DNA from: Bacteroidetes bacterium HGW-Bacteroidetes-1
GTDB lineage: Bacteria > Bacteroidota > Bacteroidia > Bacteroidales > F082
NCBI GenBank assembly: GCA_002842755.1
Contig: PHDU01000015.1
Span: forward strand, 1 to 62,136
DNA: 62,136 nt
Reading direction: 5' to 3'
Shown here: piece by piece, positions 5,313 through 9,460 of the stretch
How the letters are laid out: every line of letters starts with the position of its first letter
How positions within the stretch are numbered: the first letter of the stretch is position 1
The notes under the pieces: model-generated
What the model was told of the DNA's origin: nothing
Database searches by the model: none
Seen by the model: only the letters and a program-made list of their open reading frames with translations
Translations under genes and position numbers: made by a program

Positions 5313-6089
5313 TTAAGCCAATAAATTGTTTCTGATTTGGTGAAGAAAACCCTTCATTCCTGCACTGTTTCTTTCTTTAATCAATGCTATAAGATGTTCA
5401 AGTTCAGCACTTATACTTTCTAACTGAGGCACCGTATAAGGATTAAACAAGATTTCACTCAGCAAGTGATCGTCTTCCGAAAGCAGACCTCTGGCAATAT
5501 TAAAATGCTTTTCGAACGTTGTTCCGGGAGCTTCCTGCTTTTTCATACATGCGCCAAAAACAAGGGTAGAAGCAAAAGGTACAGAAAGAGAATAGGCAAT
5601 GGTTCGATCATGCTCATCAAAGGAATAATCATGTAAATGAATGCCAAGTGATAAGAAAAAACTCCGGAAGAAAGATTTTCCCTTTTCACACGACTCACTA
5701 ATGATGACTGCATGATGATTGCTTAGATTATTCAGGCTTGCAAACGTTGGTCCAAACATCGGATGTACCGAAACAAAATCATGTTCAATACTTTGATAAT
5801 AATCTTTTAATCCGTTTTTAACTGATGCTATATCAGCAACAATGCAGGACTTGGACAATGAAGGCAGCACCTGTTCAAAAGCCCCGCGTGTATGCTGAAG
5901 ATCAACTGCATTGATAAGTATATCAGGATTAAAAGCCACGATTTCGTCAACATTCACCAACCTGATGGTATTAAAAACGTATTTCAGCCGGTTAATATCG
6001 TGGTCAATGACAGCCACTTCATGTTGCAGGCAAAGCGCATCACTCAGCCATACACCCATTTTTCCGGCACCCATAATCACTATCTTCAT
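5313..6089 (-). CDS. tyrA: Prephenate dehydrogenase
   Basis: 258 residues. The N-terminus KIVIMGAGKMGVWLSDAL is an NAD(P)-binding Rossmann fingerprint, followed by an acidic residue after the second strand (AVIDHD). VSVHPMFGPTFASL contains the conserved HPMFGP of the TyrA/arogenate dehydrogenase family. It oxidatively decarboxylates prephenate to 4-hydroxyphenylpyruvate for tyrosine. It is the last gene of the operon and overlaps the DAHP synthase-chorismate mutase gene by four bases. No ACT domain is visible, so feedback control probably acts on other steps and on transcription through the upstream attenuator. Confidence 0.88.
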   Translation of the reverse strand: MKIVIMGAGKMGVWLSDALCLQHEVAVIDHDINRLKYVFNTIRLVNVDEIVAFNPDILINAVDLQHTRGAFEQVLPSLSKSCIVADIASVKNGLKDYYQSIEHDFVSVHPMFGPTFASLNNLSNHHAVIISESCEKGKSFFRSFFLSLGIHLHDYSFDEHDRTIAYSLSVPFASTLVFGACMKKQEAPGTTFEKHFNIARGLLSEDDHLLSEILFNPYTVPQLESISAELEHLIALIKERNSAGMKGFLHQIRNNLLA

Positions 6090-7201
6090 GGTTGTTGTTT
6101 GTATATGAATGAACCATTGCTTTTGCTATTCATTACAATGCTTTGCAATTGAACGGATTCCTCATGAATGGTCTCAAAAATCTTGCTGACAAATTCTATG
6201 TTAAGTCCTTTGCGATTCGCCTTCTCATTCCGGTCGCGGATTACCTCATTATAGCGTCGTGATTGCAAAATAGTGATGTTATTCTCGAGCTTATAAAGTC
6301 CTATTTCTTTTGAAATTTTCATCCTGTCCTTCAATAAATCAATCAGTTGGTTGTCAATATCATCAATTTTTACACGCAGATCATCAAGTACAGTACGTGG
6401 AACATCTTCAATCTTAGGTTTTCTGTATTGGAGGGAATCCACCATTTCATGCAGCTGCTGAGGCGTGATTTGCTGCTTGGCATCACTCCAGGCTTCATCA
6501 GGACGAATATGCGTTTCAACAATAAGACCGTCAAAATTGAGATCCATTGCCTGCTGACTAACTTCACGCAGAAGGCTTCTGTTTCCTGAAATGTGACTAG
6601 GGTCAGTGATAATGGGAATTTGAGGCATCCTTCGGCGAAGCTCCATCGGAATAAGCCATTGCGGGTGGTTTCTGAATTCTGAAGGAGCATACGTGCTAAA
6701 GCCCCTGTGTATTGCAGCCAATTGTTTAATTCCCGACCTGCTTATTCGCTCGATAGCACCTACCCACAAATCCAGATCAGGATTAATGGGGTTTTTAACC
6801 ATTACCGGAATATTTGCGCCTTTCAAAGCGTCGGCAATTTCCTGCACCGCAAAAGGATTTGCTGTGGTTCGAGCACCAATCCATAAAACATCTATTCCAT
6901 ATTTCAGAGCTTCAAAAACATGATTTGCATTGGCTACCTCAACACCAACATACATTCCTGTTTCTTTTTTAACTTTCTGAAGCCATGGGAGGCCTGCTAC
7001 CCCAACTCCCTCAAAAGCACCAGGCCTTGTTCGTGGTTTCCATAAACCTGCACGAAATATCTTTATACCGAAAGCAGCAAGTTCCCGGGCTGTTTGCAGC
7101 GTCTGTTCTTCAGTTTCAGCACTACATGGCCCGGCTATAATGATAGGTCTTTTCATATCAAAACCTTCTAACTTCCATGGAATTACTTCTATATTTTTCA
7201 T
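6086..7201 (-). CDS. aroF: DAHP synthase (type I beta) fused to a C-terminal chorismate mutase
   Basis: 371 residues. Residues about 1-260 are the KDPG/KdsA-related DAHP synthase: IIAGPCSAET, FRAGLWKPRTRPGAFEG, GARTTANPFAVQ, VKNPINPDLDLW and DPSHISGNRSL. Residues about 270-350 are an AroQ-type chorismate mutase, with LRVKIDDIDNQLIDLLKDRM followed by KEIGLYK. The fusion therefore carries both the first committed step of the shikimate pathway and the branch step to prephenate. The mutase lies at the C-terminal end, the arrangement common in Bacteroidota and opposite to the Bacillus enzyme. It sits 2 bases after the aminotransferase gene and overlaps tyrA by four bases. Confidence 0.92.
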   Translation of the reverse strand: MKNIEVIPWKLEGFDMKRPIIIAGPCSAETEEQTLQTARELAAFGIKIFRAGLWKPRTRPGAFEGVGVAGLPWLQKVKKETGMYVGVEVANANHVFEALKYGIDVLWIGARTTANPFAVQEIADALKGANIPVMVKNPINPDLDLWVGAIERISRSGIKQLAAIHRGFSTYAPSEFRNHPQWLIPMELRRRMPQIPIITDPSHISGNRSLLREVSQQAMDLNFDGLIVETHIRPDEAWSDAKQQITPQQLHEMVDSLQYRKPKIEDVPRTVLDDLRVKIDDIDNQLIDLLKDRMKISKEIGLYKLENNITILQSRRYNEVIRDRNEKANRKGLNIEFVSKIFETIHEESVQLQSIVMNSKSNGSFIYKQQP

Positions 7202-7203
7202 TA

Positions 7204-8400
7204 TTATCGTGTTTTATTAAATTTTATAATGCGCTGTATTGCTTCTCCGAGCAAAGATTCAGGAGTGCATAAAGAGATGCGTAAATAATTCTTTCCATTT
7301 TTGCCAAAAATATGACCTGGCGTAACAAATAAATCTACTTCGTTTAATAGTCTTTCCGACAATTTCTCTGCATCAGAATAAACTTCTGGAATTTTTGCCC
7401 AAACGAACAACCCCGTCTGGCTTTTATTATAGGTGCAACCTAAAAGGTCGTATATTTTCCAAACAAAAATCCTTCTTTTTTCATATATTTCGTTCATGCT
7501 CTTGTACCAATCGGTTCCCAAAGCCATCGCTACTACTGATGCATCCTGTATTGGCCTGAACATGCCTGAATCCATATTGCTTTTAACTTTGAGGATATAT
7601 TCAATAAAAACACGATTTGAAACAACCATTCCCATACGCCATCCAGCCATACGATGCGATTTGCTAAGCGAATTGAGTTCTATTGCAATATCCATACTTC
7701 CTTCTACACTTAAAATGCTTTCTGGATGTTCATTTAATACAAGTGAATAGGGATTATCGTTACAAATTAAGATTTTATTACGCTTTCCAAATGCAATAAG
7801 TTTTTTGTAAAATCCTTTTCCAGCTATTGCACCACTTGGCATATGAGGATAATTAACCCACATCATCTTTACTTTGCTTAGGTCAGTCTTCTCTATACTA
7901 TCAAGATCCGGCAACCAGTCCGTCTCTTCCTTTAAATCATAAAATACGATTTCTGCACCAATTAAGTTTGCGACAGCAGCATAAGTCGGATAGCCAGGAT
8001 CAGGAATGAGTACTCTATCGCCTGGATTGAGGAATGCCATTGAGATATGCATGATTCCTTCTTTTGAACCCATGAGAGGAAGAATCTCATTTTCAAAATT
8101 CACATTGACTTTAAAATAGCGATTATACCAATCCGCGAAACTTTGACGTAACTCATTGGATCCACGATAACTTTGATATCCGTGATGATCAGGGTTTGCT
8201 GCTGAAGATTGCAGCTTTTCGATCACTTGAGGCGAAGGGGGCAGATCGGGACTCCCGATGCCCATATTGATTACTTTCTTACCTTCCGAACGCATCTTAC
8301 TAATCTGATGCAGCTTAACCGAAAAATAATATTCATTTACTAAAGTGGTTCGAAAAGCAGGTGTAATCATTTCGATAGAGGATTCTGTTGCTTCAATCAT
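7204..8400 (-). CDS. Class I/II PLP-dependent aminotransferase, probably aromatic
   Basis: 398 residues with the fold type I aminotransferase signatures: INMGIGSPDLPPSP, YQSYRGSNELRQSF, PDPGYPTYAAVANLIGA, NDNPYSLV and the PLP-lysine region LNSLSKSHRMAGWRMG. Position inside a pheA-aroF-tyrA operon implies that it transaminates phenylpyruvate and 4-hydroxyphenylpyruvate to Phe and Tyr, though residues alone cannot separate this from aspartate or LL-diaminopimelate aminotransferases. The start overlaps the pheA stop by four bases (ATGA), which favours the first Met over MITPAF ten residues later. Confidence 0.87.
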   Translation of the reverse strand: MIEATESSIEMITPAFRTTLVNEYYFSVKLHQISKMRSEGKKVINMGIGSPDLPPSPQVIEKLQSSAANPDHHGYQSYRGSNELRQSFADWYNRYFKVNVNFENEILPLMGSKEGIMHISMAFLNPGDRVLIPDPGYPTYAAVANLIGAEIVFYDLKEETDWLPDLDSIEKTDLSKVKMMWVNYPHMPSGAIAGKGFYKKLIAFGKRNKILICNDNPYSLVLNEHPESILSVEGSMDIAIELNSLSKSHRMAGWRMGMVVSNRVFIEYILKVKSNMDSGMFRPIQDASVVAMALGTDWYKSMNEIYEKRRIFVWKIYDLLGCTYNKSQTGLFVWAKIPEVYSDAEKLSERLLNEVDLFVTPGHIFGKNGKNYLRISLCTPESLLGEAIQRIIKFNKTR

Positions 8401-9296
8401 GCTGTATGTTTAGTTTCATGTGTGATTTGAGTTCTGCTTTCAAAGGTTTGATATTCTCCTAAATTCTGGAGGCCGATGCTCAGAGGCCGGATAGCATCAA
8501 GCGATTGACGGTAACGTTCATAATTGTCAAAAGTAAGATCAATATAAAATAAATATTCCCATTCCCTGCCGAGCACAGGCAACGATTGGATTTTTGTAAG
8601 ATTGATGCCATAAAAAGATAGAACACTTAATATCCTCGCCAAGCTTCCAGCCTCATGAGGTAGTGAAAATACCAAAGATGATTTATTAATTTGGTATTTA
8701 TTTGGTTGATACTTAGAGGCTGCCTTGCTTGATAAACCGATCAACTGAAACCTTGTAAAATTATGGGGATTGGTTTCTATGCCACTTTTAAGAATCTCAA
8801 GATCATAAATTTGTGCTGCAAGATGAGAGGCAATTGCCGCTTTACTTTTAGCTTTTTGATCCCGAATTTGCTTTGCACTCAATGCAGTATCTTCACTCTC
8901 AACAAGCTGAATTGCAGGATATTGAAAAAGAAAATCTTCGCATTGCGCCAATGCCATAGCATGTGAATGAACTTCAGCTATTTGATTCATCGACTGACCA
9001 GGTAATGCCAATAAGCAGTGGCAGATGCGCATTTTGTGCTCACCAAGTATCATAAGTCCCGACTTGCGCAAAAGTGTATAATTAGCCAAAAGACTTCCGG
9101 CCAGAGTATTCTCCATAGCCACTAAACCCAGATTTTCAGGTTGGGAAGCAAGTTTCAGAAACTGTTCCCGGAATGTATGACAAGGAACAATCTCAACATG
9201 TTCTTCTTTAAAATATTCATTTACAGCCAGATGATGATAAGAACCTTCAATTCCCTGAATCAAAATCTTTCTTTTTATATCAACCATTTCAATCAT
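8397..9296 (-). CDS. pheA: Prephenate dehydratase with ACT domain
   Basis: 299 residues. The N-terminal catalytic domain has IQGIEGSYHHLAV, the conserved VAMENTLAGSL and NPHNFTRFQLIG (the TRF motif). An ACT domain follows (SLVFSLPHEAGSLARILSVL, then KIQSLPV in place of KIESRP), which in the family binds Phe for feedback inhibition. It converts prephenate to phenylpyruvate. First gene of the operon. Two starts are possible, at 9296 (MIEMVD) and at 9287 (MVDIKRK). The U-run of the attenuator terminator ends only 8 bases before the first, so the second gives more room for ribosome binding. Confidence 0.92.
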   Translation of the reverse strand: MIEMVDIKRKILIQGIEGSYHHLAVNEYFKEEHVEIVPCHTFREQFLKLASQPENLGLVAMENTLAGSLLANYTLLRKSGLMILGEHKMRICHCLLALPGQSMNQIAEVHSHAMALAQCEDFLFQYPAIQLVESEDTALSAKQIRDQKAKSKAAIASHLAAQIYDLEILKSGIETNPHNFTRFQLIGLSSKAASKYQPNKYQINKSSLVFSLPHEAGSLARILSVLSFYGINLTKIQSLPVLGREWEYLFYIDLTFDNYERYRQSLDAIRPLSIGLQNLGEYQTFESRTQITHETKHTA

Positions 9297-9304
9297 ATTA
9301 TTTT

Positions 9305-9340
9305 AAAAAAAAATCCCACCCCGAGGGGGTAGGATTTTTT
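9305..9340 (-). terminator. Attenuator terminator of the Phe/Tyr operon
   Basis: Read on the minus strand, ATCCTACCCC pairs with GGGGTGGGAT around a CTC loop. The ten-pair stem has one G-U pair and is flanked by A and T runs that lengthen it. It ends in a run of nine T. It lies between the leader peptide and pheA, with its U-run 8 bases from the first pheA start codon, so it can only serve premature termination of the operon's own transcript. Confidence 0.88.
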
Positions 9341-9376
9341 ATGTTTTCTTTTAAGCCCAAACACTATCTACCCCCC
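9325..9376 (-). promoter_or_regulatory. Antiterminator pairing of the Phe/Tyr attenuator
   Basis: On the minus strand GGGGGGTAG (9376-9368), at the end of the leader-peptide frame, is complementary to CTACCCCCT (9332-9324), the left arm of the terminator: eight Watson-Crick pairs and one G-U. The two structures exclude each other. A third, weaker hairpin, TTGGT (9392-9388) with ACCAA (9381-9377), extendable by U-G pairs into the G-run, would act as the 1:2 pause hairpin. A ribosome stalled on the Phe codons covers arm 1 and frees the G-run for antitermination. A ribosome reaching the stop codon covers the G-run and lets the terminator form. Confidence 0.8.
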
Positions 9377-9432
9377 TTGGTTTGAATACCAAAAAAGAAA
9401 TAATAAAAATAAAAAGAGGCAGATGCATTCAT
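9364..9432 (-). CDS. Phe/Tyr leader peptide (22 residues)
   Basis: An ATG-started frame of 22 codons ends in TAG just before the terminator arms. Codons 7-14 read FYFYYFFF, giving five Phe and three Tyr codons in a row, directly before the sequence that forms the alternative hairpins. The operon makes both Phe and Tyr, matching the mixed codon run. This is the layout of classic leader-peptide attenuation (pheA, pheST, trp and his leaders of Proteobacteria). The T-rich strand makes some Phe codons likely by chance. The alternation with TAT, the ATG, the stop placement and the pairing geometry together make chance unlikely. Confidence 0.82.
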   Translation of the reverse strand: MNASASFYFYYFFFGIQTKGGR

Positions 9433-9452
9433 TTTCTCGTCAATTGAGGGCG

Positions 9453-9460
9453 TAAATGTA
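9453..9460 (-). promoter_or_regulatory. Candidate promoter of the Phe/Tyr operon
   Basis: The minus strand reads TACATTTA, a seven-of-eight match to the Bacteroidota -7 element TAnnTTTG. It lies 20 bases before the leader-peptide ATG, placing a start site about 14 bases upstream of it. The -33 region (TTTC) is a weak match. Confidence 0.4.

Follow-up and report, generated by a model that had tools for sequence, protein, structure and literature searches.

The window, by which we mean the whole 62,136-nucleotide stretch of contig PHDU01000015.1 from Bacteroidetes bacterium HGW-Bacteroidetes-1 analysed here, carries on its minus strand an operon of four genes in the order pheA, aminotransferase, aroF-CM and tyrA, with neighbouring ends that overlap or lie 2 nt apart. 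The start of pheA is assumed to be the ATG at 9296. Upstream of it lies a short leader frame, the stop codon of which is 67 nt from pheA with an intrinsic terminator in between (Table 1). The leader frame, its run FYFYYFFF, the terminator and their coordinates all hold as they were first described.

Table 1. Features of the pheA operon and its leader region (positions of the window)
Feature	Position	Strand	Remark
-7 box TACATTTA	9453..9460	(-)	predicted; Bacteroidota sigma-A type TAnnTTTG, 5/6 fixed positions
Leader ORF MNASASFYFYYFFFGIQTKGGR	9364..9432	(-)	22 codons + TAG; no Shine-Dalgarno
Region 1, 5' part of leader	9415..9430	(-)	can pair with 9359-9375, masking region 2; kept partly in relatives
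Control codons FYFYYFFF	9391..9414	(-)	5 Phe + 3 Tyr
Region 2, antiterminator arm GGGGGGUAG	9368..9376	(-)	at leader end
Intrinsic terminator hairpin (regions 3:4)	9308..9340	(-)	15 pairs
Region 3, left arm of terminator core CUACCCCC	9325..9332	(-)	alternative partner of region 2
Nine-T run	9305..9313	(-)	expected 3' end of attenuated transcript
pheA, prephenate dehydratase	8397..9296	(-)	PDT domain; ACT match below cut-off
Class I/II aminotransferase	7204..8400	(-)	
aroF-CM, DAHP synthase fused to type II chorismate mutase	6086..7201	(-)	
tyrA, prephenate dehydrogenase	5313..6089	(-)	

The density of aromatic codons in the leader is unlikely to arise by chance. When the 300 nt upstream were dinucleotide-shuffled 1000 times, one shuffle reached eight Phe/Tyr in nine residues, and among the 51 window ORFs of at least 100 aa, pheA alone is preceded by a frame with at least six. 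Region 2 begins 14 nt past the last control codon and abuts the stop codon on its 5' side.

Folded alone, the terminator reaches -21.1 kcal/mol (z = -4.5), a stability that none of 200 shuffles attained. Its left arm had been proposed to pair alternatively with the G-run at the leader end, and the corresponding 2:3 duplex of GGGGGGUAG with CUACCCCC does form in calculation at -18.5 kcal/mol, with a borderline p of ~0.05 against shuffles for the window. Folds of the window exchange the two structures in the expected manner: the stalled state gives 2:3 at -17.3 kcal/mol, and masking of region 2 gives 3:4 at -22.1 kcal/mol. The 1:2 pairing was described less accurately. The weak hairpin that overlaps the last Phe codon sits inside the minimum-energy fold, but the main pairing there joins leader codons 1-6 (9430-9415) to 9375-9359 instead.

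The check set beforehand was a comparison of the pheA upstream regions of relatives, scored for leaders with at least six Phe/Tyr in nine residues. Such a leader precedes pheA in 125 of 159 relatives' loci; under nearly the same rule, an equally high score was found upstream of 5 of 659 other ORFs in these loci. Matches to PheA occur in 80 of 198 genomes of the order and matches to PF00800 in 172 of 198 genomes of the phylum. The 159 loci comprise the best 80 of 299 stretches, 32 same-class genomes (the better-scoring of 44 with PF00800 outside the order), 20 of 127 genomes from other classes, and 27 of the 79 other genomes of the order with PheA (8 plus 19 chosen from among the more divergent). 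The leader is present in 75/80, 27/32, 2/20 (L120 and L134) and 21/27 of these sets, respectively.

The 34 misses fall into several groups. Eighteen belong to other classes of the phylum. Four are short of upstream DNA, with at most 140 nt before the match in L062, L066 and L075 and none in L136. In nine, no aroF-CM was seen behind pheA (L045, L060, L085, L091, L095, L099, L114, L149 and L150), although L045 and L060 were judged on 2 kb behind pheA, where L060 shows no aminotransferase either. For L151 the downstream DNA is too short to judge aroF-CM, and a looser look at L153 finds a weak frame, MKNINKFYFYIHHPAT, and a terminator. The last, L158, has its leader farther off, at -502, as found on a wider look. 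In this locus some 200-300 nt with two similar repeat-like pieces (AACAnTAAAACCAA...) lie between attenuator and pheA.

An in-depth set of 112 leaders (the window, 75 and 36 further), of which each analysis used 110, was assembled for the signals that flank the leader and for its pairings. Start signals were counted in the 110 leaders with the required 60 nt upstream. In the window the -7 box TACATTTA, which has one mismatch, ends 20 nt before the leader ATG, and transcription would start near 9444-9449; no -33 box is convincing by eye. A scan with the sigma-70 consensus gave no promoter beside the leader and missed the terminator on the minus strand, and the phylum's own -7 box was used instead, which has the consensus TAnnTTTG at positions -12 to -5 (PMC9723704). 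Of the 110 leaders, 83 have a perfect TAnnTTTG in the 60 nt before their start, compared with 4.4 expected from shuffles, and 79 of these 83 boxes stand 16-46 nt before the start. Shine-Dalgarno 4-mers precede the leader start in just one of 110, where 8.5 were expected and 200 shuffles gave a minimum of 2; adenine makes up 48% of the 20 nt upstream. Given the promoter boxes and the near absence of Shine-Dalgarno sequences, the leader is in most cases the first frame that follows the promoter, and initiation on it has to proceed without Shine-Dalgarno pairing. This agrees with reports for the phylum, and ribosomes of the class do not recognise such sequences (PMC9976891, PMC6847099). The rarity of Shine-Dalgarno-like 4-mers below the shuffle level suggests avoidance, beyond mere disuse.

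A terminator of -8 kcal/mol or better follows the leader in 110 of 112 cases. Across these 110 leaders the distance from the end of the last control codon to region 2 has a median of 12 nt (interquartile range 9-15), which is about the front half of a ribosome, itself 12 nt (PMC4833913). The stop codon overlaps or lies past region 2 in 97 leaders and before it in 13. This spacing of control codons and stop codon is the geometry of ribosome-mediated attenuation.

Conservation of the pairings was assessed in several ways. On a MAFFT alignment of 42 of 69 sequences, the terminator keeps 96.6% of its cells paired, with 62 double-changed cells compared with 7-11 in slid controls. For 2:3 the same count gives 74.2% paired and 24 double changes, and sliding by +1 or +3 gives 66.5% and 24 or 49.4% and 25, respectively. 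Region 2 stands in more than one register in the alignment, and we tentatively blame the poor separation of 2:3 on this misregister. As the alignment count failed to separate the true 2:3 register clearly, duplex energies of matched and swapped partners were used, which require no alignment. For 75 non-redundant sequences of the 110, from which those with the same region 2 start had been removed, matched 2:3 duplexes come to -16.0 kcal/mol and swapped ones to -10.1, and none of 10,000 permutations is as good. The matched duplex beats the swap mean in 73 of 75 and is the best of all in 14. Against shuffled spacers, tested on 69 of 76 leaders (for five of the other seven the first routine gave no terminator, and for two a very weak one), 2:3 gives p <= 0.05 in 58 and a higher value in 11. 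The 1:2 pairing is weakly conserved: it shows a smaller difference (-9.2 matched, -7.7 swapped) and beats the swap mean in 45 of 75, although again 0 of 10,000 permutations reach it. The comparison foreseen by the original prediction came out in its favour, with terminator and antiterminator varying yet staying paired, the latter more weakly by alignment count.

At least two Phe and at least two Tyr occur in the control run of 108 of 112 leaders, and synonymous codons are mixed (TTT 426 and TTC 116; TAT 215 and TAC 173), which points to selection on the amino acid. Among the 32 same-class genomes outside the order, all 27 that carry aroF-CM behind pheA have the leader and none of the five that do not, these five representing two families. 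Outside the class, L120 and L134 have both aroF-CM and leader; L121 (aroF-CM behind pheA) and L131 (aroF-CM before pheA) have no leader despite the gene. Natural variants also show a change of control codons. The stand-alone pheA of G038 (L161) has the leader MITINNSFFFFFFRSDPEKGL, with six Phe and no Tyr, together with terminator and antiterminator, and the separate tyrA of this genome has the mixed leader MAPVHTYYAWSFFFFYFQNKRGHAV. In G395 (L070) the leader is Phe-only although aroF-CM follows pheA; no TyrA is detected there by Pfam, and the TyrA profile yields a marginal partial match of 18.2 bits in a 688-aa frame.

Genomes in which PheA is not detected provide the reverse case. Seventeen genomes have TyrA but no PheA match, and the 11 above the TyrA cut-off were taken; PF00800 is absent from 11/11 and present in both controls. 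Seven of the 11 have a credible leader, before tyrA or before aminotransferase-tyrA-aroF-CM. None was found in G005, and in G016, G146 and G137 the readable stretch is too short or the arrangement is missing. Two of the seven control runs are Tyr-only and hold no Phe, TYYYYYQ in G162 (L194) and YHTYWYYYRYR in G040 (L196). Both of these leaders stand before aminotransferase-tyrA-aroF-CM operons. The median Phe/(Phe+Tyr) is 0.25 in the seven PheA-less operons compared with 0.56 in 126 pheA-led leaders (one-sided Mann-Whitney p = 4e-5, a guide only, as related species are not independent). No pheA-led leader lacks Phe and three lack Tyr.

Exceptions exist. The leader of L006 is Phe-only despite the aminotransferase and aroF-CM downstream, and G047 and G058, both fragmented assemblies, have Tyr in their leaders though no TyrA is detected. 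A strict rule that genomes without TyrA always have a Phe-only leader was discarded, holding in one of three genomes (G395, but not G047 or G058). With these exceptions, leader codons largely track downstream gene content, and the claim that codon identity in the window fits both end products of its operon, Phe and Tyr, extends in this measure to its relatives.

Our results support a molecular model in which the window element acts as a ribosome-mediated attenuator of transcription and senses the charging of tRNA-Phe and tRNA-Tyr. Its parts are conserved, spaced and co-varying, and its codons match the pathway approximately; we place the probability of this reading at about 0.93. Promoter use, translation of the leader, stalling and a response to amino acid supply are what we infer from this architecture. 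RNA polymerase would start ~15 nt upstream of the leader, on which a ribosome would initiate without a Shine-Dalgarno sequence. With both tRNAs charged, the ribosome would reach the stop codon and cover region 2, leaving 3:4 to form the terminator and transcription to end near 9305. Should either tRNA run short, the ribosome would stall on the Phe/Tyr codons with region 2 just past its front edge. Regions 2 and 3 would then pair before region 4 is made and polymerase would read through into pheA-aminotransferase-aroF-CM-tyrA. If the leader is left untranslated, region 1 can hide region 2 and termination would be expected to win. Leader conservation, the pairing of terminator and antiterminator and the match of codons to pathway thus speak for the reading as an attenuator that was originally put forward, on the evidence that sequence comparison affords.

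Read-through might instead be set by another factor, such as an RNA-binding protein, a riboswitch or a constitutively leaky terminator, with the Phe/Tyr frame incidental. The terminator is indeed the best conserved part, and translation of the leader is deduced rather than observed. However, 125 of 159 loci have a Phe/Tyr frame in a similar position, with a spacing to region 2 close to half a ribosome footprint, and in these frames synonymous codons mix while the amino acids shift with pathway content. Nor does any Rfam riboswitch or T-box reach gathering level in the 20 loci scanned. We consider an incidental frame improbable. Much the same standing is given to a second possibility, that the leader responds to slow translation in general, whether caused by antibiotics or by any starvation, rather than specifically to Phe and Tyr. 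A stall of whatever cause on the control codons would release region 2, and an upstream ORF described for E. coli senses several antibiotic classes (PMC12121999). Against this, Phe/Tyr identity would have no need to track the downstream genes, and the same genome would not be expected to carry His-, Trp- and Thr-rich leaders, each on its own operon. Least probable of all is that the short ORF encodes a small hydrophobic peptide with its own function or raises pheA translation through reinitiation. The peptide is indeed aromatic and of a conserved type, and leader genes near structural genes have been proposed to aid reinitiation (PMC4833913). Yet the stop codon is 67 nt from pheA with the terminator between, amino acids other than those of the control run differ widely although the RNA that encodes them keeps pairing, and the Phe:Tyr ratio differs with the products of the operon.

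The pheA leader has candidate counterparts elsewhere in the same genome. The His, Trp and Thr leaders described here are drawn from the window's own genome. Upstream of hisG, a His-rich leader, MNFLFHHTHHRSRYLLGACALYCI (L143 2195-2269, minus strand), has a TACTTTTG box upstream and a terminator AATCCCGCCTGACA...GGCGGGATTTTTTTT before hisG, with a clear 2:3 pairing of -15.3 kcal/mol. Upstream of trpE, the Trp leader MANRNLNNWWWHHFSKLQS (L144 2935-2994, minus strand) is preceded by a TACTTTTG or TACATTTG box and followed by a terminator, and its 2:3 pairing is weak (-8.2). The Thr leader MLTSGTTFTTTTTTTGDGKGRFCLKLQAV of thrA (L168 700-836) has a TACATTTG box, a terminator and again a clear 2:3 pairing (-14.4 kcal/mol). 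IlvD (PF00920) was not found in this genome (G000, 98% complete), a hint that this organism may lack the usual route to branched-chain amino acids.

For the class as a whole, we lean towards a broader proposal: that leader-peptide attenuation is a general habit for amino acid operons, with leader starts free of Shine-Dalgarno sequences and control codons re-tuned (Phe-only, Phe and Tyr, or Tyr-only) with the gene content of the aromatic operon. If true, translation in these bacteria would have to become tightly coupled to transcription while polymerase is still within a few tens of nucleotides of its start site. The pheA leader arrangement itself is widespread in this class, whose ribosomes ignore Shine-Dalgarno sequences. 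The leaders represent ready-made reporters for how tightly translation trails polymerase and for how a short leader starts without Shine-Dalgarno pairing. As leaders of Phe-only, mixed and Tyr-only type occur in nature, codon sensing can be tested directly.

In enterobacterial pheL-pheA, a Phe-rich leader peptide lies upstream of pheA together with mutually exclusive pairings and a terminator before the gene; the leader of E. coli pheL is Phe-only. The window element shares the Phe-rich leader, the exclusive pairings and the position of the terminator, but differs in its interspersed Tyr codons, in an operon that makes both amino acids and in the lack of a Shine-Dalgarno sequence. Sensing of several amino acids by one leader is known from the E. 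coli ilvGMEDA and thrABC attenuators, which the present element would resemble in this respect, although the amino acids and the phylum are different. Rfam does not recognise the element. Its Phe_leader family (RF01859) scores the window at 32.1 bits, below the gathering score of 55, which none of 20 relatives reached either; Thr_leader matches the window weakly, and a scan of 20 loci for leader families, riboswitches and T-boxes returned nothing at gathering level except a tRNA. Bacteroid-trp RNA (RF01692), a putative cis-regulatory RNA of Bacteroidetes, belongs to the same phylum and is linked to trp genes by name, but its published account, as far as it bears on this, describes no mechanism (PMC2864571), and it has no match in the window's genome.

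The original prediction knew of little experimental work on such attenuation in this phylum, and this needs qualification, as the phylum is not blank. A 2021 transcriptome paper on Flavobacterium presents hints of leader-peptide attenuation ahead of amino acid operons; it also describes conserved structured elements in front of pheA and hisG in Flavobacteriaceae (PMC9723704). The element upstream of pheA thus concerns the same phylum and the same gene as here, although the passages concerned in that paper give no leader sequence, analysis of Phe/Tyr codons, alternative pairing or spread outside the family. Leader-like small ORFs have also been reported in B. thetaiotaomicron, in passages that do not name pheA (PMC7366714). 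The literature searched yielded no account of the mixed Phe/Tyr leader, of its class-wide spread or of its re-tuning; the comparative work on attenuation that Lopatovskaya and others published in 2010 may already list Bacteroidetes cases. The type of mechanism is that of textbook attenuation, here in an element that Rfam does not recognise and for which hints in Flavobacterium are already in print.
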